64,000 nucleotides of DNA from an uncultured bacterium (GCA_938010045.1 CALLFZ010000021.1:1-64000), one strand, 5' to 3'; shown: positions 10,630-57,337, numbered from the stretch's first letter. Program-made: numbers and translations. Notes: generated by a model not told the origin, from the sequence alone.

Positions 10630-13137
10630 ATGAACGAGCGATACAACTTTGCGGAGATCGAGGCGCGCTGGCAGGCCTATTGGGAAGAGACCGGAGCGTT
10701 CGCGGTGGATACCTCCGACGCGACGCGCAAGTTTTATTGTCTGGTGATGTTTCCGTATCCCTCCGGCACGCTCCACGTTGGGCATGGCCGCAACTACATC
10801 ATCGGCGATGCGGTGGCGCGGTACCAGATGATGCGTGGGTGGCGGGTGCTGACGCCGATGGGGTGGGACGCGTTTGGGCTGCCGGCGGAGAATGCGGCGA
10901 AAAGCCGCGGGGTGCACCCGCGTGAGTGGACGCTCGCGAACATCGCGCAAATGAAGCGGCAGATCCGAAGCTGGGGAGTGGGCTACGACTGGTCCCGCGA
11001 GATCGCGACGTGTCATCCCGAGTACTACAAGTGGACCCAGTGGATCTTTTTGAAACTCTATGAGCGGGGGTTGGCCTATCGAAAACTCGCGCCGGTGAAC
11101 TGGTGCGAGTTCTGCACGACGCTTGCGAACGAGGAGGTCCGGCCGGACGGCACATGTGACCGCTGCGGGCGTCCGGTCCGCAAGCGCGAGCTCGAACAGT
11201 GGTTTTTCCGGATCACCGAGTATGCGCAGCGGCTGCTCGATGACCTTGCGCTGCTCGATCACTGGCCCGAGCGGGTGCGCGCGATGCAGGCGCACTGGAT
11301 CGGCCGGTCGGAGGGCGCGCGGATCCAATTTCGCGTGGCCGAGACACAGGACCCGTGCCCGATCTTCACGACGCGGCCTGACACGATCTACGGCGTCACG
11401 TTCATGGCGATCGCGCCCGAGCATCCGCTCGTGGCGAGCCTGATGCGGGGGGCGCCACGCGAGGCGGAGGTGATGGGCTTTGTCGAGCGACAGCGGCTGA
11501 TCCCCGCCACGGAGCGCACCGCCGAGAGTGCGCCGAAGGAAGGCGTCTGTACCGGGTTTCATGTGGTCAACCCCTACACGGGCGAGCGCGTGCCGCTGTG
11601 GGTGACGAACTACGTGTTGATGGACTACGGCACGGGCGCGGTGATGGCCGTGCCGGCGCACGATCAGCGCGATTTCGAGTTTGCGCGGCGATACGGTCTG
11701 CCGATCCGCGTTGTGATCCGTCCGCCCGACCGCGAACTCGATCCGGCGGCGATGGAGGCCGCGTACATGGACGACGGCGTGATGATCAATTCCGGTCCGT
11801 TTAATGGCCGGGGCAACCGGGAGGCGATGCCGGACATCATCGCGCTGGCGGTTCGGCAGGGCTTCGGCGAGGCGGCCGTGACCTACCGGATTCGCGACTG
11901 GTTGATCAGCCGCCAGCGGTACTGGGGTGCGCCGATTCCGATCATTCACTGTCCGAGCTGCGGCGCGGTGCCCGTGCCGGAGTCGGATCTGCCGGTACGG
12001 CTGCCCGATGACGTGGACTTCCGGATTGAGCAGGGCAATCCGCTGGCCGCGCACGAGGGGTTTGTGCGCGCCACGTGTCCGAGGTGCGGCGGGCCCGGCC
12101 GGCGCGAGACCGACACGCTGGCCCAGTGGTTGTGTTCGTGTTGGTACTTCTTGCGCTACATCAATCCGCGGTTGCGCGAGAAGCCGTTTGAGCGCGGCGA
12201 CGTGGACCGCTGGCTGCCGGTGGACCAGTACATCGGTGGCGTCGAGCACGCGGTGCTGCACTTGCTGTACTCTCGGTTCATCGTGAAGGTGTTGCACGAC
12301 GCAGGGTATGTGTCGTTTGTTGAGCCGTTCCGCGCCCTCTTCACGCAGGGGATGATTTGCAAACGCAGCGACATCGATGGGCAGCTCCACAAGATGTCCA
12401 AGTCCAAGGGGAACGTGGTGAGTCCCGACGAGTTGATCCGCGAGTACGGCGCGGACACGCTGCGGCTCTACACGTTGTTCATCGGTCCACCCGAGAAGGA
12501 CGCCGAGTGGAACGATGATGCGGTCGAGGGGGCGTTTCGGTTTCTCAACCGCCTGTGGCGCCGTGTGTATGAGACACGCGCGACGCTGGCGGCCTCGCCG
12601 GGGCGGCCGGCCCGGACGGACGAGTTGGATGCGGAGACGCGCGAACTGCGGCGAAAGGTTCACGAAACGATCGCGAAGATCACCCGCGACATGGACGGCG
12701 CGTTCCGGTTCAACACCGCGGTCGCGGCGATCATGGAGCTGTTCAACGCGATCGAACGGTTTGCGGTGGATCCCGGCGCGCGTCCGGGCCGTCGCGCGGT
12801 GTACCGGGAGGCGGTGGAATCGCTCGTGCTGATGCTCTCGCCGTTTGCACCCCACATTGCGGAGGAATTGTGGCGCGAGCTGGGTCACACGGAGAGCGTG
12901 CTGCGCGCGCGCTGGCCCGAGGCGGAGGCGGATGCGATGCGGCGCGAGGAGGTGGAGATCGCCTTGCAGGTCAACGGCCGGGTGCGGGGGCGCATCTGGG
13001 TGAGCGCGGGCACGGACCCGAAGACGATCGAGGCCGAAGCCCTGGCGCACCCGCAGGTCCAGCGGTGGATCGAGGGCGCGGTGGTGCGCAAAGTGGTCGT
13101 GGTGCCCGGCCGGTTGGTCAACATTGCGACCGGCTGA
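10630..13137 (+). CDS. leuS: Leucyl-tRNA synthetase
   Basis: This 835-residue class I aminoacyl-tRNA synthetase charges tRNA-Leu in the cytoplasm. Landmarks in order are: N-terminal [16 protein letters not shown], the HIGH motif as [16 protein letters not shown] (about residue 45), and Zn-binding cysteines in [12 protein letters not shown] and CDRCGRP. The CP1 editing domain carries the threonine-rich motif [15 protein letters not shown], and the catalytic loop is [16 protein letters not shown] near residue 588. An anticodon-binding domain and the C-terminal [11 protein letters not shown] domain complete it. Length is normal for bacterial LeuRS. The ATG at 10630 is where family similarity begins; further open frame upstream is low-complexity. 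Confidence 0.97.
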
Positions 13138-37031: not shown

Positions 37032-37458
37032 GTGCCTCTCCCCACCCCAATCGAAGACCGCGACAGGCACGAAGACCCCCAAACAGGTACTAAAGAGGCC
37101 CCGCCCGACAGTCTCCACTCCACGGTTGTAGGCCACCTTGTTTCGTATGACGAAAAAAGGCGGCGCGGATGGGAGGCAGCAAGGATTGAGGGTTCGTCCT
37201 TCTGGGTTTGCTGGCCTGGCGGCTCCAAATGGGGACAGGCACGTGGCGACGCTTTCGGTTTCCTAGGCCCGCTGCGTTCGGAGAGGTGCCTGTCCCCATA
37301 CCGGTCCCCATAACGACTCCATGGGGTTGACGTGAGGCGACCGGCCTACAGTGCCCGTGCCCGATCGTGACGATGTGCCCCAAACGAGGTGCCTGTCCCC
37401 TGTGCCTCCTGTGCCTCGACGTGCCTGTCCCCAAGGGCCGTCCCAGGTGCCTATCCCT
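37032..37458. repeat. Dispersed-repeat island 1 (GTGCCTGTCCCC family)
   Basis: The 12-mer GTGCCTGTCCCC or its reverse complement occurs at 37231-37242 (as GGGGACAGGCAC), 37286-37297, 37389-37400 and 37421-37432. Degenerate copies lie at 37032-37043, 37062-37070 (part) and 37447-37458. Copies point in both directions and are often flanked by GTGGC or AGAG. The same family forms a second island at 52870-53315. The bipolar, spaced copies look like REP/RAYT-type dispersed elements, but no transposase gene is present in the window. Confidence 0.8.
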
Positions 37459-45898: not shown

Positions 45899-46575
45899 TC
45901 CATCGCTCCCGGGGTTTCGTCTCCGCAACGCCCACGCCGGACCGCCGCGGGCTGCCGGACAAGGGTGGGAGAGCATATCGGGGCGGCCGGAGCTTCGCAA
46001 TCCGGTTCGGAGTCGGGCCGCAACAGCAGCCATTGAGATTCCCCGACGATGCGCACGCGCTCCAGACTCCATGGCGCCGGCACCGGTGGCGGCATGCGGG
46101 CGGACAACTCGAGCACCATCCGTCCGTGCGCATGCAGCGCGCGAGCGGCGGCCAACGCGCGGATGAGCTCCTCAGTCCAGCCGGGTTGGGCGGCGAGCGC
46201 GTACGGGGGGTCGGCGAAGATCAGGTCGAACGGGCCGGCGTGCAGATACCGCGCGGGCTGCGTCGCGTCCGCGCGGATCACGGTCCATCCAACCGGCCAC
46301 TGACCGGACGGCGCGAGGGTCCTCAGGTTCGCGCGAAGTGTCGCGCAGGCGCCGCGGTCGTTCTCTACCCAACAGGCCGTCGCCGCGCCGCGGCTCAGTG
46401 CTTCGATGCCGTACGCGCCACTGCCGGCGAAGAGGTCGAGAATGCGGGCCCCGACCACGGCCTCGCCGAGCGAGGAAAAGACCCCTTGGCGCAGGAGGTC
46501 GGACGTCGGTCGTGTGCCACGGGGCGGCACGCGGAGCCGGAGTCCCCGCCAACGGCCGCCGGTGATGCGGATCAT
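45895..46575 (-). CDS. rsmD: 16S rRNA (guanine-966-N2)-methyltransferase
   Basis: A 226-residue SAM-dependent methyltransferase. Features are IRITGGRWRGLRLRVPPRGTRPTSDLLRQGVFSSL, the SAM motif ARILDLFAGSGAYGIEALSRGA, and the catalytic DLIFADPPYAL (DPPY). A C-terminal extension of about 40 residues (PICSPTLVRQPAAVRRG) is unusual. The ATG at 46575 overlaps the GGDEF stop (ATGA). MGMIR at 46581 is an alternative start. Confidence 0.93.
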   Translation of the reverse strand: MIRITGGRWRGLRLRVPPRGTRPTSDLLRQGVFSSLGEAVVGARILDLFAGSGAYGIEALSRGAATACWVENDRGACATLRANLRTLAPSGQWPVGWTVIRADATQPARYLHAGPFDLIFADPPYALAAQPGWTEELIRALAAARALHAHGRMVLELSARMPPPVPAPWSLERVRIVGESQWLLLRPDSEPDCEAPAAPICSPTLVRQPAAVRRGRCGDETPGAME

Positions 46576-47099
46576 GCCCATCTCGTTCGCACGCAGCGGC
46601 CGCCCGCCTGTTTCGCGCGCCGCAACGCGAGATACGCGCGGTCGATGAGCGTGCCCCAGTCCGGTCTGCGGGTCGCGCGGGTCAGCGCGATGCCGGCGGA
46701 CGCGGAGAGCCGGCGCCGGCGCAATTCCGGCTCCGCCGCGACCGCGGCGAGCGCCGCCCGCGCGATCCGCGCGGCGGTCCGCGCCTCTCCGACCCGCACG
46801 AGCACGAGAAACTCGTCGCCCCCGAGCCGGACGATGTCGGTCGCTTCGCCGACCGCGCGCACGAGCGCGCGTCCCAGGGCGACGAGGCACACGTCACCCG
46901 CGCGATACCCGTGAACGTCGTTCACGCGTGAAAGCGCATCGGCATCAAACAGCATGATCGCGAGGTAGCGACCGCCGCTTCGGCCCCAGGCTCGCGGAGC
47001 GCATCGGGCGAGCCACCGCCGGTTCCAGAGGCCCGTGAGCGGGTCGGTCCAGGATGCGCGGCGGGGGTGGGGCGCGCGGTCTTGGCGATGGGTAGCCAT
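46572..47099 (-). CDS. Stand-alone GGDEF domain diguanylate cyclase
   Basis: A 175-residue protein made almost only of a GGDEF domain: DPLTGLWNRRWLAR, IMLFDADALSRVNDVHGYRAGD, and the active site IVRLGGDEFLVLV. It should make cyclic-di-GMP from GTP. The GGDEF signature is intact, and I see no canonical RxxD inhibitory site in front of it. No sensor domain or membrane anchor is attached, so activity must be set by expression or partners. First gene of the minus-strand operon, divergent from the exopolysaccharide-like module, a setting in which c-di-GMP control would make sense (inference). Confidence 0.9.
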   Translation of the reverse strand: MATHRQDRAPHPRRASWTDPLTGLWNRRWLARCAPRAWGRSGGRYLAIMLFDADALSRVNDVHGYRAGDVCLVALGRALVRAVGEATDIVRLGGDEFLVLVRVGEARTAARIARAALAAVAAEPELRRRRLSASAGIALTRATRRPDWGTLIDRAYLALRRAKQAGGRCVRTRWA

Positions 47100-47245: not shown

Positions 47246-50200
47246 GTGAACAACGGCGGCAGGTGGATCGGGTGGCGGCGAGTCGGTTGGGCTTGGCTGG
47301 CGGTGGCGCTCTGCATGGGAGTGGCTGCCGATGATCTGACCATCCGGCGCGAGCGGACTCGCCCGGCGGGTGGCGCGCCGACGGATCCCGAACTCCGCCG
47401 GCGCGAGCCGGCGCGACCTCTTGCGGGTGGTATGATCACGAACCTTGTGTCGCCGGCCGAGCGCCTGCCGCCGTTGATTCCGGTCTTGACGGCGGCGCCG
47501 CCGCCCGTGGCGACGGCGTCCACATCGGCCGCGGTGCCGGTGGCGGCCGCGACGACGTCGGAGACGTCCACCGCATCCGGCGCGACCCCTACGCCGGCGT
47601 CGCCGGATTCACCGGCCAGTCGGGCCGGCGGGTTTTTCTTCGAGCTGTTTCGGGATTCAACGGTTTCGACCTCGTCGCGGCCCTCGGCGTCGGTGGCTGA
47701 GCCACCTGCGTTTCGGAAGATGGAGGCTCCGGCGACAGAACCGACCGCGCGCACGATCGTGGTCCGCCTCGAGGAGGCGATTGCGCTGGCGCGGGAGCAG
47801 CAGCATGAACAGGCGGTGCCGCTGCTGGAAGAGATCATTCGGGAGGACCCGGGGGTCACGGCGGCGTGGGAGCAGCTCGGATGGAGCTACTGGGCGTTGG
47901 GACGCCGGTCGGACGCGCTCGCGTTGTGGCGTCGCCTGCTGTCGCTTGATCCGCGCAACGCCGCCGCCTGGAACTGGCTCGCGCGCGCCGCTGTGGCCGA
48001 AAACGACCTCGAGCGTGCGATCGAGTACAACCGCAAGAGTCTTGAACTGGCGCCGGAGAACCCCTCCGCGCGATACGATCTGGCCCGCGTGTTGCTGTGG
48101 AAGGGCGTTTCGGACGAGGCGATTCCGATGCTGGAGTCGTTGCTCGCGGCGGATCCCAACCGGCTCGATGTGTTGCTCGACTACGCGAAGGCGCTGACGT
48201 TCGCCTGGCAGTTCGAGCGGGCGCTGCCGCTGTGGCAGCGCTTGCGCGAGGCGGCGCCGGATGAAATCTCCTACATGGGGTTCGAGGCGCTGTGCCGCCT
48301 TCACACGAACGACGCCGAGGGCGCCCGTGAACTGGCGCGGCGCGTGCTCGAGGCGGCGCCGGACGACCTGATGGCGCTCGACGTGATGGCCTCGCTCGCG
48401 GAGTTCGGCGATACGCCGGCCGATGCGTTGCCGTACCTGCGACGGATGATGGCGGCGGTGGCGACGCCGTTCGAGAAAGAGCGGAATCGGGCGAGGCTGA
48501 TCCGGCTGCTGGTCCGGCTTCACAAGGCCGAGCCGCGCGTGTACGGGTTGCGCGAGGCGATTGATCTGAGCCGCGAGCGGGTGGCCGACCATCCGACCTC
48601 CGTGGACGCGCGGTTGCTGCTCGGCGAGCTCCTGCTGATGGACATGATGCTGCCCGACGCCGAGCGCGAGTTCATCGCGGTGCTCCGCGATCGCAATCCC
48701 TACAACATCCGAGCGCGCAAGGGGCTCATGGAGACGTACCTCGCGGCGAAGGAATACGATCGCGCGCGGGAACAGCTCGCCGCGCTGAGCCGGTTCAACC
48801 CGCAGGACCCGTACCTGTTGTACCACCTGGCGCGGATCGAATCGGCGCGCGGCGATTTCTTCAAGGCCCATGAGGCGCTGCGCCAGCTCGAGGCGATCGG
48901 GCAGCAGGGCGCGGTGGCCGTGTTGCTCTACCACGGCCTGCTGCCCAGCCGGTATTTTCCCGAGGCGATGCCGGTGGACCGGTTTCGCGAGCACATGATC
49001 GCGCTTCAAAAGGCGCGGGTCCGCTTCGTGCGGTGCAGCGAGCTGCCCACCGTGCTCGGCGGGCGCGCCGGGACCAACACCGTGGCCTCCGTGCGGCCGG
49101 TCCTTCGCGGCAGCGGGTTTGCGCGGCCTGCGGGCGGCGCCCTGCCGTTGACCGTCGCGGTGAGCTTCGACGATGCGCGGCGCGACTCGATGCAGTACGG
49201 CACGCAGGTCGGCCGGGAGCTGGGGCTGCTCTTCTCGATGCACGTGCCAGTCGGCTACATCCTTCGCAACCATCCGTTCATCTGCACCTGGGACATGCTC
49301 CGGCAGTACCAGACAGAAGGCGCCTGGGAGTTCGGCGGTCACATGCTGGATGGCGCAATCCTCACGCCGGTGGACGCCAGCGGGCGCGAATGGCACGCGC
49401 TGCCCAACTTGATCTGGCGGGCCGAGCTCGGCCGCATGGAGACGCCAGCCGAATATGATCAGCGACTGGCCCGCGAGTTCCGCGAGAGCCGTGACATCTT
49501 GCAGCGGGAACTCGGTGGTCCGGTGAATTTCGTGGCCTACCCCTTCGGCGACATCGGGCAGGAGGACGAAACGAACGTAGAGGATCCGACCGGACGCATC
49601 CTCTACCACGCTCGCCGCAACTTCGAGGTGGGGTTCATCCAGAGCGTGTTTGGCTATGCGATCGCGGGCGACGATCCGCTGCTGTACCAACGCTACGAGC
49701 CGGCGCGATGGATGAACGGCCAGGACCTGCTGGACTATCTCTACGCGCATCATCCCGTGTTTCTCGCGCGGAGATTGCGCGCAGAGTACTGTGCGCTGGA
49801 GGGCAAGCTCTACGCCGCGCGCGACGCGATCCGCTCGTTGGAGGAAGCCGGCTATCCGGACCGTCCTTTGGAACGCGTCCGCACGTACGTGGAGGAACGA
49901 CTCGCGGGCACATTCCGCGCACCGACGGGCGAACGGCCGGGGACCATCACGAAGTCGCCGTGGACCTTGGAACCGCGCAAACCCTATGCCGGTGTCGAAG
50001 GCGAGGCTTTCCGCGACAACCAGGATCGGGCGCATGGGCGGCTCTTCGGGCTCGCCGGCCTGAACATCACACCCAACTTGGTCCTCGAGGGACGCGCCGG
50101 CATCGGGCATCTGCAGCAGGACGTGACGGATTCGATCACAAATTCGATCGTTCGCCGCGTCGGGCGCCGACAAATTCCAACCATCGAGCTGAGCGCGAGC

Positions 50201-50980
50201 CGTCGCCGGCTCGACCTTGACGAGCGTGATGTTGGCGGTCGCGCGATGTTCACCTTCCCGAACGGCGTTTACGTGGCCGGCGACCTGCTTCAACGATCGT
50301 TTTCGGGGAATGTGAACCGGGACGTGCTCGCGGGCTCGCTCGAGAGTCAGATCCGTCCGGTGCCGCCGCTGGATCTGTTACTGCGGTATGAGCACGACAT
50401 CGCGCCGTCCGCCCTCGCGGTCGCCGAGGACACCCAGTACGATATGTGGATGGGCGTCGCGAACATCCGGCTTCAGGATCCATGGACGCTGCTATTGTCG
50501 GCGATCCGGTACGATTTCACGGACGACAACGTCCGCGATCACCTCGCGGTGTCGACGTCGTGGACGCTGCACGAGCGGACCGGCTTCCGGCTCGGGCTGC
50601 GCGTGTCGTGGGACAGCGCCGATCACGAAAGTCGCGCGTACTGGACGCCGTATCATCTGCAGCGGTACGCGATCGAAGCCGGCTTCCGGGGCAATTACCT
50701 CCGCACGTACTACAATCTGCGTCTCCGTCTCGGTATCGGCCGCGAGGATGTGCGCCCAGAGGCGGAGGAGCGCTACCGGGCGACGGTGGTCCGCGCGCGC
50801 GAGTTGCAGTTCGATCCCGGCCCGCCTCCCGAGGAGGACTGGGAGCCGATCCTTGGCCTCGCCGCCTCGGTTCGCAAACCGATTGGCGACCACTGGGTGC
50901 TGAACGGCGAAGTGTCATACAACCGCAACCCGAACTACAACGAGATCTCGCTGCTCGGCGGGGTGCGATACAAGTTCTGA
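47246..50980 (+). CDS. TPR / PgaB-like polysaccharide deacetylase / outer-membrane beta-barrel fusion
   Basis: A 1244-residue envelope protein. A signal peptide (RVGWAWLAVALCMGVAADD) and a Pro/Thr/Ala-rich linker precede TPR repeats at about 170-540 (AAWEQLGWSYWALGRRSDALALW, ARYDLARVLLWKGVSDEAIPML). A PgaB-like NodB deacetylase spans about 555-780: AVLLYHGLLPSRYF, VSFDDARRDS, GGHMLDGAILT, ELGRMETPAEYDQRLAREF, VAYPFGDIG. From about 920 the sequence alternates amphipathic strands and ends VRYKF, a typical outer-membrane barrel C-terminus. PgaA has TPR plus barrel and PgaB the deacetylase, so this looks like both in one chain, without PgaB's glycosidase domain. The second metal His of the SHTxxxH motif is Ala here. 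GTG start, with GGGAGG 5 nt upstream. Confidence 0.82.
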   Translation: MNNGGRWIGWRRVGWAWLAVALCMGVAADDLTIRRERTRPAGGAPTDPELRRREPARPLAGGMITNLVSPAERLPPLIPVLTAAPPPVATASTSAAVPVAAATTSETSTASGATPTPASPDSPASRAGGFFFELFRDSTVSTSSRPSASVAEPPAFRKMEAPATEPTARTIVVRLEEAIALAREQQHEQAVPLLEEIIREDPGVTAAWEQLGWSYWALGRRSDALALWRRLLSLDPRNAAAWNWLARAAVAENDLERAIEYNRKSLELAPENPSARYDLARVLLWKGVSDEAIPMLESLLAADPNRLDVLLDYAKALTFAWQFERALPLWQRLREAAPDEISYMGFEALCRLHTNDAEGARELARRVLEAAPDDLMALDVMASLAEFGDTPADALPYLRRMMAAVATPFEKERNRARLIRLLVRLHKAEPRVYGLREAIDLSRERVADHPTSVDARLLLGELLLMDMMLPDAEREFIAVLRDRNPYNIRARKGLMETYLAAKEYDRAREQLAALSRFNPQDPYLLYHLARIESARGDFFKAHEALRQLEAIGQQGAVAVLLYHGLLPSRYFPEAMPVDRFREHMIALQKARVRFVRCSELPTVLGGRAGTNTVASVRPVLRGSGFARPAGGALPLTVAVSFDDARRDSMQYGTQVGRELGLLFSMHVPVGYILRNHPFICTWDMLRQYQTEGAWEFGGHMLDGAILTPVDASGREWHALPNLIWRAELGRMETPAEYDQRLAREFRESRDILQRELGGPVNFVAYPFGDIGQEDETNVEDPTGRILYHARRNFEVGFIQSVFGYAIAGDDPLLYQRYEPARWMNGQDLLDYLYAHHPVFLARRLRAEYCALEGKLYAARDAIRSLEEAGYPDRPLERVRTYVEERLAGTFRAPTGERPGTITKSPWTLEPRKPYAGVEGEAFRDNQDRAHGRLFGLAGLNITPNLVLEGRAGIGHLQQDVTDSITNSIVRRVGRRQIPTIELSASRRRLDLDERDVGGRAMFTFPNGVYVAGDLLQRSFSGNVNRDVLAGSLESQIRPVPPLDLLLRYEHDIAPSALAVAEDTQYDMWMGVANIRLQDPWTLLLSAIRYDFTDDNVRDHLAVSTSWTLHERTGFRLGLRVSWDSADHESRAYWTPYHLQRYAIEAGFRGNYLRTYYNLRLRLGIGREDVRPEAEERYRATVVRARELQFDPGPPPEEDWEPILGLAASVRKPIGDHWVLNGEVSYNRNPNYNEISLLGGVRYKF

Positions 50981-50996: not shown

Positions 50997-52421
50997 ATGC
51001 TGTTTCCGACGCTCACGTTCGCGGTGTTTTTTGCCGTGGTGTTCGCGGTGCAGTGGGCCCTGGCGGGCCGGCCGCGCGGCCGTAAGTGGTTCCTGCTGCT
51101 GGCCAGCTATGTGTTCTATGGCTGGTGGAACTGGCGGTTTCTCGGTCTGATCGCCGGGTCATCCCTGATCAACCATGCGATCGCGAGGGCCCTCGCGCGT
51201 TCGGAGTCGCCGCGCCGGCGGCGTGCATGGATCGCCCTCGCGACGGTCCTGAATCTCGGCGCGCTCGGCTTCTTCAAGTACTACGGCTTCTTCGTCGTCA
51301 ATGCGTATGCGCTGTGTTCGTGGCTCGGCGTGCGCTGCGCTCTTCCGTTGCTCGACGTCGTGCTGCCGGTCGGCATTTCGTTCTTCACCTTCCAGGCGAT
51401 GAGCTACGTGTTTGACGTGGGGGCCCGCCGCATCCCGCCCGCGGCTTCGCTGCTCGATTTTGCGCTGTACCTCGCGTTGTTTCCGCAGCTCGTGGCGGGG
51501 CCGATCGTGCGCGCGCGCGATCTGCTGCCCCAAATCGAAACGCCGCCGACCCCGGCGCGGCTCGACGTGGGCGGCGCCGCCGTGCTCATCCTCGGCGGGC
51601 TGTTGAAGAAAGTCGTCATCGCGAACTGGCTCGGCGTGCGGCTCGTGGACCCGGTGTACGACCATCCCGAGGCATTCGGCCGATGGGACGCGCTTGCGGC
51701 GGTCTACGGATACGCGGTGCAGCTCTACTGCGACTTCTCGGCCTACTCGGATATCGCGATCGGTGTCGCGCGGCTGCTCGGCTTTCAATTCCCCGGCAAC
51801 TTCGACGCCCCCTACGGGGCTTCGTCGGTGCAGGAATTCTGGCGCCGCTGGCATATTTCGCTGTCCACCTGGTTGCGCGATTACCTCTACGTGCCGCTCG
51901 GGGGCTCGCGCGGCGGATTCGCGCGCACGGCCTTCTGCCTGATGGCCACCTTCCTGCTCGGCGGGCTCTGGCATGGCGCGGGCTGGAACTTCGTGCTCTG
52001 GGGCGCGCTGCACGGCACGTACCTCATCATCGAGCGGGCGATTTGGGCCCGGTACGGCGGCGCCGCGAAGGCGGTGGCACGGCTGCCCCGGTGGACGCGC
52101 TTCGCGCTGACGCTGCTGACGTTTCACCTCGTCGGGCTCACCTACGTGTTTTTCCGCGCGCGCGCCTTGGCCGACGCCCTGGAGTTGCTGAGCGCATTCT
52201 CGCGCGCGGGCGCGCCCACCCGGATCACCGCACCCCTCGTGGGCCTCCTCGTGATCGGATGGGCGATGCAGGGGTTGGACGGCCATCGCGCGGACGGTCT
52301 CGCGCGTCGCGTCGCCGCGATGCCGCCGGTGCTCGTGGGCGCGCTCGCCGCCCTCGCCGTCGCGGTGATCTTCGGACTCGGACCGCGCGGCGTCGCTCCG
52401 TTCATCTACTTCCAGTTCTAG
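50997..52421 (+). CDS. MBOAT family O-acyltransferase (AlgI-like)
   Basis: A 474-residue polytopic membrane enzyme that by family moves acyl groups across the membrane for polysaccharide O-acetylation (AlgI, PatA, DltB). Features are LFFPTLTF-type start, YVFYGWWNWRFLGLI, LGFFKYYGFFV, PVGISFFTFQAMSYVFDV, FPQLVAGPIVRARDLLPQ, VQEFWRRWHISLSTWLRDYLYVPLGGSR, and the catalytic His in LGGLWHGAGWNFVLWGALHG (about 325). It starts 16 nt after the deacetylase-barrel gene, so both belong to one transcript. A partner SGNH hydrolase lies 1.3 kb downstream. Confidence 0.94.
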   Translation: MLFPTLTFAVFFAVVFAVQWALAGRPRGRKWFLLLASYVFYGWWNWRFLGLIAGSSLINHAIARALARSESPRRRRAWIALATVLNLGALGFFKYYGFFVVNAYALCSWLGVRCALPLLDVVLPVGISFFTFQAMSYVFDVGARRIPPAASLLDFALYLALFPQLVAGPIVRARDLLPQIETPPTPARLDVGGAAVLILGGLLKKVVIANWLGVRLVDPVYDHPEAFGRWDALAAVYGYAVQLYCDFSAYSDIAIGVARLLGFQFPGNFDAPYGASSVQEFWRRWHISLSTWLRDYLYVPLGGSRGGFARTAFCLMATFLLGGLWHGAGWNFVLWGALHGTYLIIERAIWARYGGAAKAVARLPRWTRFALTLLTFHLVGLTYVFFRARALADALELLSAFSRAGAPTRITAPLVGLLVIGWAMQGLDGHRADGLARRVAAMPPVLVGALAALAVAVIFGLGPRGVAPFIYFQF

Positions 52422-52869: not shown

Positions 52870-53315
52870 GTGCCTGTCCCCATGACACCCCATGACACCT
52901 AGGCAGGTGCGACCGCCGCGGTTGGCTTCCCGCCCATGGGGACAGGCACGTGGGGACAGGCACGTGGCAAATGGGGACAGGCACGTGGCAACCCGATAGC
53001 CTTTGAGCTCATGCGACCGGTGATGTGCCTGTCCCCGACCTGCGCCCAGAGAGGCGAAGAGGTGCCTGTCCCCATGACGCCATGACGCCATGACGGCTCC
53101 ATGAGGATTCCGCGTCGGGTGAGGCGAAGCGACTATGGCCGGGCACCCGGCCGACACGCCGTGCCTGCCCCCATCGCCTGCCCCCATCGCCTGTCCCCAT
53201 CGCGCTCCCCATCGCCGGGGCACCAGAACCCGGGAGGTGCCTGGCCCCAACTGCAATCCCAGGTTGTGTGCCCCCGGGGAGGCATCAAAGCTGGCAGTCA
53301 AAGCTGCCTGTCCCC
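52870..53315. repeat. Dispersed-repeat island 2 (GTGCCTGTCCCC family)
   Basis: Exact copies of GTGCCTGTCCCC occur at 52870-52881, 53025-53036 and 53062-53073. Reverse copies GGGGACAGGCAC lie at 52938-52949, 52952-52963 and 52973-52984, each followed by GTGG. Degenerate copies are at 53161-53172, 53188-53198, 53237-53248 and 53304-53315. The triplet at 52938-52984 is a short tandem. The stretch after 53062 (repeat, then GACTCC/GGCTCCATG and GTGAGGCGA) also resembles the stretch after 37286 in island 1. Confidence 0.82.
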
Positions 53316-53705: not shown

Positions 53706-54401
53706 ATGCGACGATGGATGATGGCGGTGATCGGCGCGGTGGCGTGTGCGACGTCAGCCGGCGCGCAGGGCGCTGCGCGCGAGGTGCTCGTGTGCGGCGA
53801 CTCGCTCATGCAGACGGTCTCGCGTTCGATCGTGCGACAGCTCTCCTCGAACCCGTCCGTGAAGATCACGCCGATCGTCTCCATCGGCACCGGCCTCGCT
53901 CGGCCGGACGTCTTCGACTGGCCCGCGAAGCTGCGCGAGGCGGCCGCCAGCCGGCCCGCCGCTGCGGTGATCCTGCTCGGCGCGAATGACGGCCAAAATC
54001 TGCGCACCGCGTCCGGTGCGGTCGCGGCGAACGGAACGCCGGAGTGGGAGCGCGAATACGCCGGCCGCGTGGCGTCGGTGCTGCAGGCGCTGAAGCAGGC
54101 CGGCGTGGGGCACATCCTATGGGTCGGACTACCGGACATGCGGGACTCGAAGCTCCACGACGACGCACAGCGGATCAATCGTCTCGTCCGGTCGGAATGC
54201 GGGCGGGTACCGGGCGCCGAGTTCTTCGACATTGTTCCGCTGTTCAGTCCGAAGCCCGGCACCTTCAGCTCCTACATCATCCGGTCTGGCGGCAAGGTCG
54301 TGCAGGTCCGCGCCAGCGATGGCATCCACTTCAACGCGGAGGGGGCGGATATTCTCGCGCAGGCGATTCGCGAACAGCTCGAAGCGAAATTGCTGAAGTA
54401 A
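53706..54401 (+). CDS. Secreted SGNH/GDSL hydrolase (DUF459-like)
   Basis: A 231-residue protein with a signal peptide (MRRWMMAVIGAVACATSAGAQG) and an SGNH esterase/acyltransferase domain: block I REVLVCGDSLMQTVSR (Ser nucleophile in GDSL), block III ILLGANDGQN (GxND), and block V SDGIHFNAEGADILAQAI (DxxH). In polysaccharide acetylation systems such periplasmic enzymes accept acyl groups exported by an MBOAT protein, so pairing with the MBOAT gene upstream is likely. GGAGG lies 8 nt before the ATG. The signal peptide of its own argues against a simple broken-gene explanation for the distance to the small upstream membrane protein. Confidence 0.88.
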   Translation: MRRWMMAVIGAVACATSAGAQGAAREVLVCGDSLMQTVSRSIVRQLSSNPSVKITPIVSIGTGLARPDVFDWPAKLREAAASRPAAAVILLGANDGQNLRTASGAVAANGTPEWEREYAGRVASVLQALKQAGVGHILWVGLPDMRDSKLHDDAQRINRLVRSECGRVPGAEFFDIVPLFSPKPGTFSSYIIRSGGKVVQVRASDGIHFNAEGADILAQAIREQLEAKLLK

Positions 54402-54608
54402 GTCTTCCTGGGCCGGCCGGCGTCGCCTGCGCCTGCCGCGCCGCCGTCAAATCGTCGCCTCCAAGGATTGGATGGCTCGGCCCGACGGCGTTCCAAGCCT
54501 TGGGCGCCGGTTGCGATCGCGGGGCGGCGTGCGATGGCGCCCGACTGCGCGTATACTCCGCGCACGCGCCGCGGCAGGCGGACTTCGCCCTGGAGCGTGG
54601 GGTGGCCG

Positions 54609-55979
54609 ATGCTTCTCTCCGAACTGTTGAAGGTTGACATCGTCGAGATGGTCGAGGCCGGCGAGTGGAACGAGCTCCGCCAGTTCCTCGCCGGTCAACC
54701 CGCGCCGGAAATCGCGGAATTGCTGAGCACCCTTGACCGCCGCACCGCATTGGTGGTCTTCCGGCTGCTGCCGCGGGCGCAAGCGGCCGCCGTGTTCTCT
54801 CTGCTCGACACCGATGTCCAGAACCGGATGATCGAGCATCTCGCCTCCGAAGACGTCCGCGAGGTGCTCACGCGACTGACCCCGGACGACCGCACCGCGC
54901 TGTTCGAAGAGCTGCCCGCCGCCGTGACGCAACGGTTGCTCGACCTGCTGCCCGAATCGCAGCGGCGTGAGTCTCTCACGCTGCTCAGCTATCCCGAGGG
55001 CAGCGTCGGCCGACTGATGACGACCGCCTGGGTCCGGGTACGGCCCGAGTGGACCGCGGCGGAGACGATCGAGCATTTGCGATTGCACGGCCGCGACAGC
55101 GAGACGATGGCCGTGCTGTACGTCACGGACGATCAAGGCCGCCTCACCGCCTCGATCCCGCTGCGGCGGGTCGTGCTCGCGCCTCCGTCGACGCTGCTGC
55201 GGGACCTGATGGACGCGGGTCCCGGGCCGGTGCTGCGCTCCATGCAGTCTGAAGAAGAGGCCGTCGCGATTTTTAAGAAGTATGACGCCCACGCGCTGCC
55301 CGTGGTGGACGACGACGGTGTGCTGCTGGGGATCGTCACGTCGGACGACATCCTCGCCGTCGCGCAGGCGGCCACGACGGAGGACTTCCACAAGATCGCG
55401 AAGGTGTCGCCGCTGGAGGGCAGTCTGCGGCGTGCGCGTCTCTGGGACCTGTACCGCCGCCGCATCGGATGGCTGCTCACCTTGATTGGCGTCAACATGT
55501 TCTCAACGGCAGCGCTCGCGCACTTTCAATCGGACTACGACCGCGACGAGCTTCGGTCGCTGCTCGTGGTGTTGGTGTCGTTTCTGCCCCTGATCATCGA
55601 TAGCGGCGGCAACGCCGGATCGCAGACCGCGACACTTGCGATCCGTTCGATGGCGCTTGGGGAAATCCGCCGAGGCATGATCCTGCCACTGGTCGTTCGG
55701 GAGCTGCGCGTGAGCGTCGTGCTGGGGCTCATCCTCGCCGCGGGCGTGTTTGTGTTGGGGCTGACGCGCGGAACCGCATGGGTGGCCCAAGTGGTGGCGA
55801 TCAGCATGTTGGTGGTCATTGTGTTCGGAAGCTCCATCGGCCTCTTGCTGCCGCTGGCCCTCCGTCGGCTCGGACTGGACCCGGCGGCGGCCGGCGCGCC
55901 GCTGATCACATCGCTGGCGGACATCGGCGGCATCGTCATCTATTTTTCGATCGCGCGCGTGGTGTTGCTGAGAGGATAG
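54609..55979 (+). CDS. mgtE: Magnesium transporter MgtE (copy 1)
   Basis: A 456-residue Mg2+ channel/transporter. The cytoplasmic N-domain (LAGQPAPEIAELLSTLDRRTALVVFRLLP) is followed by two CBS domains (SEEEAVAIFKKYDAHALPVVDDDGVLLGIVTSDDIL). The five-helix pore has the signature LIIDSGGNAGSQTATLAIRSMALGEI and a C-terminal DIGGIVIYFSIARV. The N and CBS domains sense intracellular Mg2+ and close the channel. A TATACT -10-like element lies at 54552-54557. It is followed after 2 nt by a second copy. Confidence 0.95.
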   Translation: MLLSELLKVDIVEMVEAGEWNELRQFLAGQPAPEIAELLSTLDRRTALVVFRLLPRAQAAAVFSLLDTDVQNRMIEHLASEDVREVLTRLTPDDRTALFEELPAAVTQRLLDLLPESQRRESLTLLSYPEGSVGRLMTTAWVRVRPEWTAAETIEHLRLHGRDSETMAVLYVTDDQGRLTASIPLRRVVLAPPSTLLRDLMDAGPGPVLRSMQSEEEAVAIFKKYDAHALPVVDDDGVLLGIVTSDDILAVAQAATTEDFHKIAKVSPLEGSLRRARLWDLYRRRIGWLLTLIGVNMFSTAALAHFQSDYDRDELRSLLVVLVSFLPLIIDSGGNAGSQTATLAIRSMALGEIRRGMILPLVVRELRVSVVLGLILAAGVFVLGLTRGTAWVAQVVAISMLVVIVFGSSIGLLLPLALRRLGLDPAAAGAPLITSLADIGGIVIYFSIARVVLLRG

Positions 55980-55981
55980 GG

Positions 55982-57337
55982 ATGCCGCCGGTGGTTCCAT
56001 TGCTGAAGCCCGATATTCTCGACCTGATTGAGGCCGGGCAGTGGAGCGACCTGCGAGAGTTTCTCGCTCGTCAACCCGCGCCGGAGATCGCGGAGCTGCT
56101 CGCCTCGGTCGAGCATCCGAAGGACCGCCTGATCCTTTTCCGACTGCTGCCCCAACAACTGGCCGACGACGTCTTCGCGAACCTCTCGGCGGACTTGCAG
56201 ACGGCGCTCATCGAGCACATGGCCAACGACGAGGTGCGCGGCGTGTTGTTGCGCCTTTCGCCGGACGACCGCACCGCGCTCTTCGAGGACATGCCGGCCC
56301 GCGTGACGCGGCGTCTGCTCGCCCTGCTGCCCGATTCCGCGCGTCAGGCCGCGATGGAACTGCTCAACTATCCCGAGGGCAGCGTCGGGCGGCTCATGAC
56401 CACCGCCTATGTGCGGATCCGCCCCGAGTGGACGCGCGAGCAGGTGCTCGATCACATCCGCCAGTGGGGACGCGACAGCGAAACGCTGGCGATGCTCTAT
56501 GTGACCGATGAGCGCGGCCGGTTGCTGGACGACATCCCGCTGCGTCGCGTCATTCTCGCGGAGCCGGGCACGCTCGTCGTGGACATGATGGATCATCGGT
56601 TCGTCGCGTTGACCGCCCATCAAGAGCGCGCGCAGGCGGTGCAGATGTTTCGCAAATACGGTCTATTTGCGATGCCCGTGGTGGACCGGGAGGGGATGTT
56701 GCTGGGCATCGTCACGCTCGACGACATCCTCGACGTCGAGGAAATGGAGTCGACGGGCGACTTTCACCGCATCGCGACGGTCCGCCCGCTCGAGACCAGC
56801 TTCACGGAGGCGAGCGTCGGATTGCTCGTCCGGCGGCGGGTTGGGTGGCTGATGGCGCTGCTCGGCATCAACGTGTTCTCGGGCTCGGGCATCGTCGCGT
56901 TCGAGGACGTGATTTCCGCGAACATGGCGCTGGTGTTTTTCCTGCCGCTGCTGATCGACAGCGGCGGCAATGCGGCCTCGCAGAGCGCGACGCTCGTGAT
57001 CCGCGCGCTGGCGATCGGCGACATCCGATTGCGAGACTGGCTGCGGATGGCGGGCCGCGAGTTTGCGCAAGCTTCATGGATCGGGCTGACGATGGCCGCG
57101 GGCGTGTTCGCGCTTGGGGTCTGGCGCAGCGGATTCGCGATCGGAGTGGTTGTGGCGCTGGCGATGTTTTCGGTCGTTCTGCTCAACTGTTTGATCGGTG
57201 TTCTGCTGCCGTTCGGGCTCGCCCGTGCGCGGCTGGATCCCGCCGCGGCGAGTGTGCCGCTCATCACGTCGATCGCGGATGTCACGGGTGTGTTTGTCTA
57301 CTTTTTGATCGCGCGCGCATGGTTGGCGAGGATGTGA
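55982..57337 (+). CDS. mgtE: Magnesium transporter MgtE (copy 2)
   Basis: A 451-residue paralogue with the same order: N-domain (LARQPAPEIAELLASVEHPKDRLILFRLLP), CBS pair (QMFRKYGLFAMPVVDREGMLLGIVTLDDIL) and pore (LIDSGGNAASQSATLVIRALAIGDI, ADVTGVFVYFLIARAW). The pore signature has GNAASQ in place of GNAGSQ. The copies clearly arose by tandem duplication but have diverged throughout. MgtE forms homodimers, so a heterodimeric channel from these adjacent, co-translated genes is possible. Divalent specificity may differ. Confidence 0.94.
   Translation: MPPVVPLLKPDILDLIEAGQWSDLREFLARQPAPEIAELLASVEHPKDRLILFRLLPQQLADDVFANLSADLQTALIEHMANDEVRGVLLRLSPDDRTALFEDMPARVTRRLLALLPDSARQAAMELLNYPEGSVGRLMTTAYVRIRPEWTREQVLDHIRQWGRDSETLAMLYVTDERGRLLDDIPLRRVILAEPGTLVVDMMDHRFVALTAHQERAQAVQMFRKYGLFAMPVVDREGMLLGIVTLDDILDVEEMESTGDFHRIATVRPLETSFTEASVGLLVRRRVGWLMALLGINVFSGSGIVAFEDVISANMALVFFLPLLIDSGGNAASQSATLVIRALAIGDIRLRDWLRMAGREFAQASWIGLTMAAGVFALGVWRSGFAIGVVVALAMFSVVLLNCLIGVLLPFGLARARLDPAAASVPLITSIADVTGVFVYFLIARAWLARM

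Follow-up and report, generated by a model that had tools for sequence, protein, structure and literature searches.

A stretch of 64,000 nucleotides from an uncultured bacterium (GCA_938010045.1 CALLFZ010000021.1:1-64000; hereafter, the window) encodes a protein of 1,244 residues that joins tetratricopeptide repeats (TPRs), a PgaB-type domain and a predicted C-terminal beta-barrel in one chain. With a probability of about 0.78, we interpret it as the exporter of a synthase-dependent polysaccharide system of Kiritimatiellota with the PgaB-type domain built in. Its frame is uninterrupted for 1,244 codons from a GTG start at 47246, 5' of which inspection reveals a GGAGG-like ribosome-binding stretch, and its parts follow in the order signal peptide, ~11 TPR hairpins, PgaB-type NodB domain, helical hairpin and, at the C-terminus, a domain that bears barrel signatures and ends in Phe (Table 1). 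An initial examination of the DNA alone (the sequence-only reading) had proposed that an exporter like PgaA and a deacetylase like PgaB share one polypeptide here, with the latter lodged between the two halves of the former and deprived of the PgaB glycosidase domain. Each of these points is upheld: the same order recurs across many genera, the PgaB-type domain lies between the TPR and barrel parts of a PgaA-like architecture, and a Pfam scan of the protein returned no match to a glycoside hydrolase domain, the place of which is taken by the barrel-type domain.

Domain architecture and distribution of the probable exporter

The TPR part is the most readily recognized. Numerous Pfam TPR families score well above cut-off, and an AlphaFold2 model of residues 161-1244, computed with three homologues in the alignment, displays 22 helices across residues ~166-553, mostly with pLDDT values of 70-92. 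In VIA, the exporter model matches TPR superhelices with Z up to 17.7; because the TPR part dominates, the VIA list comprises TPR proteins only, and missing barrels or NodB folds there are uninformative. The helices and these matches bear out the TPR fold that had been placed within residues 170-540.

The PgaB-type domain shows clear homology to PgaB and IcaB (CE4, NodB2 fold), with which it shares an MT5 motif placed first (YHG), FDD, the RxET block and YPxG. A comparison of hidden Markov models (HMM-HMM, hhalign) between E. coli PgaB and the family alignment gave a probability of 98.8% (E 5e-17), and the top solved-structure matches of the family profile are PgaB and IcaB (4u10, 3vus, 4f9d, 5bu6, 4wcj). 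The blocks earlier cited as deacetylase signatures align to PgaB ISWHN and ARYETAAEYRERI. Pfam Polysacc_deac_1 matches weakly over residues 636-771, and AlphaFold2 modeled the domain with low confidence, as it did the stretch holding the helices of the hairpin that joins the domain to the barrel. In contrast to PgaB and IcaB, the domain is fused to an exporter, is accompanied by neither a glycoside hydrolase domain nor a visible lipoprotein signal, and has lost the second histidine of MT2.

For the C-terminal part, we infer an outer-membrane barrel from several signatures. A terminal Phe with a typical last strand of outer membrane proteins, such as DHSFLAYLRLRF or SLLGGVRYKF, is present in 51/59 homologues. 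The family-averaged ratio of beta to alpha periodicity is 1.37, versus 0.98 +/- 0.10 in shuffles and 1.13 for the E. coli PgaA barrel taken as one sequence; there are 19 strand-like peaks versus 9.3 +/- 2.4 in shuffles. Pfam matches among 39 members scanned singly are weak and mainly to outer-membrane barrels (OMP_b-brl, 6; BCSC_C, 4; MipA, 3; PgaA_barrel, 2; autotransporter, 1), and the barrel profile found no match up to E 5 among PDB sequences. The window also encodes LptF/G, which fits the presence of an outer membrane. Such signatures would fit the previously proposed barrel ending in Phe.

The exporter resembles PgaA (HmsH) in having an N-terminal TPR solenoid followed by a likely outer-membrane barrel ending in Phe, and in its linkage to a GT2 synthase and a PgaB-type domain; it differs in having the PgaB-type domain inserted between TPRs and barrel. 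Where PgaA has a 16-stranded C-terminal barrel, the exporter has the above signatures, and its barrel is not recognizably homologous to that of PgaA by HMM-HMM comparison, PF21197 being weakly matched in only 2/39 members. The curated PgaA model (TIGR03939) scores 49.7 bits, over the TPR part only, against a cut-off of 366.65 bits, and the PgaB model (TIGR03938) scores 28.5 bits against a full-length cut-off of 321.9 bits. Judged by such matches, the protein is a PgaB relative joined to a PgaA-like exporter and not strictly PgaA plus PgaB, because neither curated full-length model reaches its cut-off.

The fusion is a conserved, class-wide family of Kiritimatiellia and no oddity of a single genome. 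Strong matches to a deacetylase-plus-barrel profile (E < 1e-50) occur in 62/240 sampled genomes of the class, and homologues with the same domain order and without internal stops, sought at the suggestion of the sequence-only reading, were recovered from the genus (67-80% identity) and its family and, beyond these, from numerous further families of the class. Genome sampling covered Verrucomicrobiota broadly; in 388 genomes from the phylum, the matches beyond the class were weak and confined to the deacetylase part.

The metal site of the PgaB-type domain

Whether the built-in domain is an enzyme is a separate matter. In PgaB, the metal is held by D115, H184 and H189; H189 is one ligand of the nickel pocket (PMC7112194), and the D115A substitution abolishes deacetylation (PMC9384988). 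The exporter retains the Asp and the first His, and the H189 equivalent is replaced by Ala704. The D114, D115, H184 and H189 equivalents can all be read in 59 barrel-bearing homologues; of these, 15 have an intact site, 26 lack the H189 equivalent alone and 18 lack more, so that 44/59 are incomplete. The sequence-only reading had called the domain a deacetylase; the homology to PgaB stands, but that name presupposes activity, whereas the H189 position is Ala here and 44 homologues are incomplete.

Related proteins without a barrel present a different picture. All 10 barrel-less TPR-deacetylase paralogues whose 3' end is closed have an intact site (Fisher p 1e-5 against the barrel-bearing set, the barrel-less set being nearly one clade and not 10 independent events), and a short-search tree of the TPR-deacetylase part requires at least 12 changes between intact and broken sites. 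Contig C5 of the window genome itself encodes such a barrel-less paralogue with an intact site (L036:8519-11173), and in three other genomes (G149, G187 and G438) barrel-less copies directly adjoin the barrel-bearing gene. In addition to its full PgaB-type metal site, the C5 paralogue has a tail rich in proline; its gene adjoins groEL/dnaK-type genes. Two genomic regions carry tandem exporter triplets in which the metal sites have decayed unequally (L030:10454-19900 and L066:1240-12627; e.g., DDHG, QGFD and DGLH in one case and DDHH, DDRQ and DDHH in the other).

We lean slightly toward the built-in domain being non-catalytic in the window protein. The foremost alternative, which we regard as a serious contender that nonetheless falls short of even odds, is that the protein is an active PgaA-PgaB fusion, in which the built-in domain still works as an N-deacetylase, with a changed metal site formed by Asp643, His699 and one more ligand from elsewhere, e.g., His717, and deacetylates the polymer on its exit. 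It draws on the retention in the window protein of the D114, D115, H184 and H55 equivalents and of the catalytic Arg, on the 26 homologues that lack H189 only, on the complete site of 15/59 barrel-bearing members, and on the presence of His717 both in the window clade and in a second clade likewise devoid of H189. As to His717 as a replacement ligand, once kinship is considered, independent pairs do not support its association with the loss of H189. Further, the residue lost is itself a metal ligand in PgaB (PMC7112194), and 18 barrel-bearing members have lost additional residues.

Gene cluster and the presumed exported polymer

The gene that begins 16 bases past the exporter encodes an MBOAT O-acyltransferase, and an SGNH/DUF459 protein related to PatB is encoded further downstream on the same strand. 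Both retain what is expected of an MBOAT/SGNH O-acetylation module, namely, the active-site His of the MBOAT protein and the Ser and Asp-His of the SGNH protein. A GGDEF protein is encoded divergently upstream of the exporter, and an RLGGDEF-type motif is kept at this position in four species of the genus.

Table 1. Coordinates of the probable exporter, its parts and its neighbors in the window
Feature	Position	Strand	Basis or remark
TPR / PgaB-like / beta-barrel exporter gene	47246..50980	+	1,244 aa; main finding
Putative signal peptide, Sec-type, residues 1-28	47246..47329	+	judged by eye from the sequence
TPR solenoid, residues ~166-553, 22 helices	47741..48904	+	Pfam, AlphaFold2, VIA
PgaB-type NodB domain, residues ~557-824	48914..49717	+	hhalign with E. 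coli PgaB; PDB profile search
His563, equivalent of PgaB H55 (LLYHG)	48932..48934	+	alignment
Asp642-Asp643, equivalents of PgaB D114, D115	49169..49174	+	alignment
His699, corresponding to metal ligand H184 of PgaB	49340..49342	+	alignment
Ala704, replacing metal ligand H189 of PgaB	49355..49357	+	alignment
Helical, TPR-like hairpin, residues 825-886, joining deacetylase domain to barrel	49718..49903	+	conserved HPVFLARR...GYP block
Predicted C-terminal beta-barrel domain, residues ~905-1244, Phe end	49958..50977	+	sequence signatures
MBOAT O-acyltransferase (AlgI/DltB/PatA-like)	50997..52421	+	Pfam PF03062; conserved neighbor; WHG motif present
SGNH/DUF459 O-acetyltransferase (PatB-like)	53706..54401	+	Pfam PF04311; PatB structures; GDS and DxxH present; conserved neighbor
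GGDEF diguanylate-cyclase domain protein, divergent from exporter	46572..47099	-	NCBIfam TIGR00254

Two further components emerge from the comparison of genomes. In the window genome, the exporter, MBOAT and SGNH genes lie together on the window contig; in a genome of the same family (G006, L021), these three genes on one strand are followed by a convergent pair for a PgaB-like inner-membrane protein and a GT2 synthase, and in genome G051 (L035) all five genes form a single run on one strand. L025, L029, L033 and L034 each unite four or five of the cluster parts. Across the 240 genomes of the class, the exporter family is present in 51/53 of those with the inner-membrane PgaB-like protein (Fisher p 1e-38, uncorrected for kinship), and in that protein D115, H184 and H189 have all been lost in 23/23 members. 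These components recapitulate the general features of synthase-dependent exopolysaccharide secretion, namely, a linked processive GT2, a TPR scaffold, a putative barrel and periplasmic polymer-modifying domains. In the window genome, the inner-membrane protein (L003:9364-13374 on G000:C34; 1,336 aa) directly follows the GT2 gene and comprises a transmembrane helix, the metal-less PgaB-like domain, middle domains, TPRs and a C-terminal domain; by eye, one of the middle domains is perhaps a degenerate glycoside hydrolase-like barrel.

The search for a PgaC/GT2-type synthase and a cyclic di-GMP receptor that the sequence-only reading had recommended gave a divided result, yielding the GT2 in the genome (L003:7892-9421) and no PilZ-type receptor. 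This GT2 carries QxxRW, scores 151 bits against NodC and 107 bits against PgaC (TIGR03937), both far below the curated cut-offs, and matches solved hyaluronan synthases. Because it sits among NodC, hyaluronan synthases and PgaC, the polymer may be poly-N-acetylglucosamine (PNAG), chitin-like or glycosaminoglycan-like. A narrower proposal, that the product is strictly PNAG and the locus simply a diverged pga operon, strikes us as unlikely. The two PgaB-type proteins, the PgaC-like score of the GT2 and the divergent GGDEF gene, which adjoins the exporter as dgcT adjoins pgaA in E. coli, would all be in keeping with it. However, the GT2 is closer to NodC than to PgaC and matches hyaluronan synthases, all under cut-offs, the PgaA and PgaB models score far under theirs, O-acetylation genes have been added, and there are PgaB-like domains without metal ligands.

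The O-acetylation genes suggest another alternative, namely, a locus for O-acetylation of peptidoglycan or the envelope, in which the exporter-like protein serves envelope modification and not the export of a free polysaccharide. The SGNH protein is indeed nearest to PatB and the MBOAT protein nearest to DltB, but linkage and co-occurrence tie the exporter to a processive GT2 and the inner-membrane PgaB-like protein, TPRs plus a barrel are the layout of a polysaccharide exporter, and the acetylation of alginate and cellulose likewise relies on MBOAT plus SGNH pairs, there with a TPR-type exporter; we therefore consider this improbable. The cluster resembles those modules (AlgI/AlgJ/AlgX, WssFGHI), as well as PatA/PatB, in its MBOAT plus SGNH pair and differs from them in adding PgaB-type domains. 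Finally, a frameshift or assembly artefact joining neighboring genes can be dismissed, as nothing was found in its favor and dozens of independent genomes, at 30-80% identity, preserve the fusion in unbroken frames with its parts in an unchanged order.

Several observations weigh against the protein being an exporter of the type that we propose. The GT2 and the inner-membrane PgaB-like protein are encoded in the window genome on a separate contig (C34; L003:7892-13374), and the MBOAT/SGNH pair resembles the peptidoglycan O-acetyltransferases PatA/PatB. The window genome encodes no PilZ protein, although other cyclic di-GMP receptors are possible; E. coli PgaC/PgaD likewise lack a PilZ domain. 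AlphaFold2, run with an alignment of 3-4 sequences on residues 161-1244 and on the barrel alone, yielded no usable barrel model, and when only the barrel is compared with that of E. coli PgaA, HMM-HMM alignment gives a low probability (14%), which does not count as evidence. Lastly, besides the 15/59 barrel-bearing homologues with a full metal site, 26 more retain D-D-H; because so many members without H189 do so, this retention suggests that the site still serves some use.

The surroundings of the cluster offer some additional observations. A gene pair for a KaiC/RecA-like ATPase and an ExeA-like AAA ATPase is repeatedly found beside it (L033:10809-12709, L034, L031, L030 and L035). A GHL10-type glycosyl hydrolase adjoins it in two genomes (L033:7530-9833 and L030:2-2245), and two more GHL10 proteins are encoded elsewhere in the window genome; perhaps the cluster-adjacent GHL10 replaces the missing hydrolase domain of PgaB. 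Downstream of the cluster, at 54468-57337 of the window, the overlapping open reading frames 54468-55979 and 55778-57337 each match MgtE Mg2+ transporter domains and seem to be two tandem mgtE genes. The intergenic element GTGCCTGTCCCC occurs in 10 exact copies on both strands (0.01 expected), which form two groups (window 37231-37432 and 52870-53073), and similar translated repeats lie upstream of the C5 paralogue (L036 ~11207-11740); it looks like a dispersed REP-type repeat.

A proposed path for the polymer

The E. coli system serves as a guide. There, PgaA and PgaB form a 1:1 complex, the deacetylase domain of PgaB alone binds PgaA residues 221-515, namely, the TPR stretch nearest the membrane, and PgaA boosts the deacetylase activity of PgaB 2.7-fold; the complex arises on co-expression or co-purification and not from separately purified, mixed proteins (PMC9384988). 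The fusion mirrors this complex, with its PgaB-type domain at the same, membrane-near end of the solenoid. Hence, we postulate that the processive GT2 would assemble a polymer of amino-sugar type at the inner membrane, where the anchored, metal-less PgaB-like/TPR protein suggested by sequence and linkage would adjoin the synthase. By analogy with the E. coli complex, the polymer would cross the periplasm along the TPR solenoid or groove, pass the PgaB-type domain where the solenoid nears the outer membrane and exit via the C-terminal barrel. From their families, intact motifs and linkage, the MBOAT and SGNH proteins are likely to O-acetylate it. The built-in domain would mainly bind and guide the polymer, with N-deacetylation, if any, being performed by the intact barrel-less C5 paralogue.

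Precedents exist for joining a periplasmic enzyme to a TPR exporter. BcsZ-BcsC fusions are known from Zymomonas (PMC7112194); these likewise unite a periplasmic polymer-modifying enzyme with a TPR-barrel exporter, and differ in that the enzyme is a hydrolase and not a deacetylase fold, the fusion is not class-wide, and no incomplete active site is reported in the passages on them. The same source describes PgaB with N-terminal glycosyltransferase fusions, without PgaA and the hydrolase; these share with the family described here a rearrangement of PgaB domains lacking the hydrolase, and have a glycosyltransferase as partner in place of an outer-membrane exporter. Cultured Kiritimatiellae (Pontiella) produce sulfated glycosaminoglycan-like exopolymers (PMC7356697). 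Our literature searches, for which subscription papers were mostly beyond reach, found no PgaA-PgaB fusion and no NodB domain inside an exporter.

Taken together, these observations prompt the tentative suggestion, which we hold with less confidence than the exporter assignment, that the secretion machine of Kiritimatiellota has recruited PgaB-type folds as structural components. A metal-less copy would sit with the synthase at the inner membrane and a copy with a repeatedly degrading site would grip or gate the polymer in the exporter, with catalysis left to a barrel-less paralogue or replaced by O-acetylation. For PNAG-type systems, in which the polymer is handed over from modifying enzyme to exporter, the fusion is a natural single-chain version that sets stoichiometry and geometry and lends itself to structure determination. 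Exporters that have repeatedly lost the metal site, beside intact barrel-less paralogues, would let the guiding role of the PgaB fold be separated from its chemistry. More generally, for a phylum of which very few members have been cultured, the cluster offers a defined set of genes for exopolysaccharide export.

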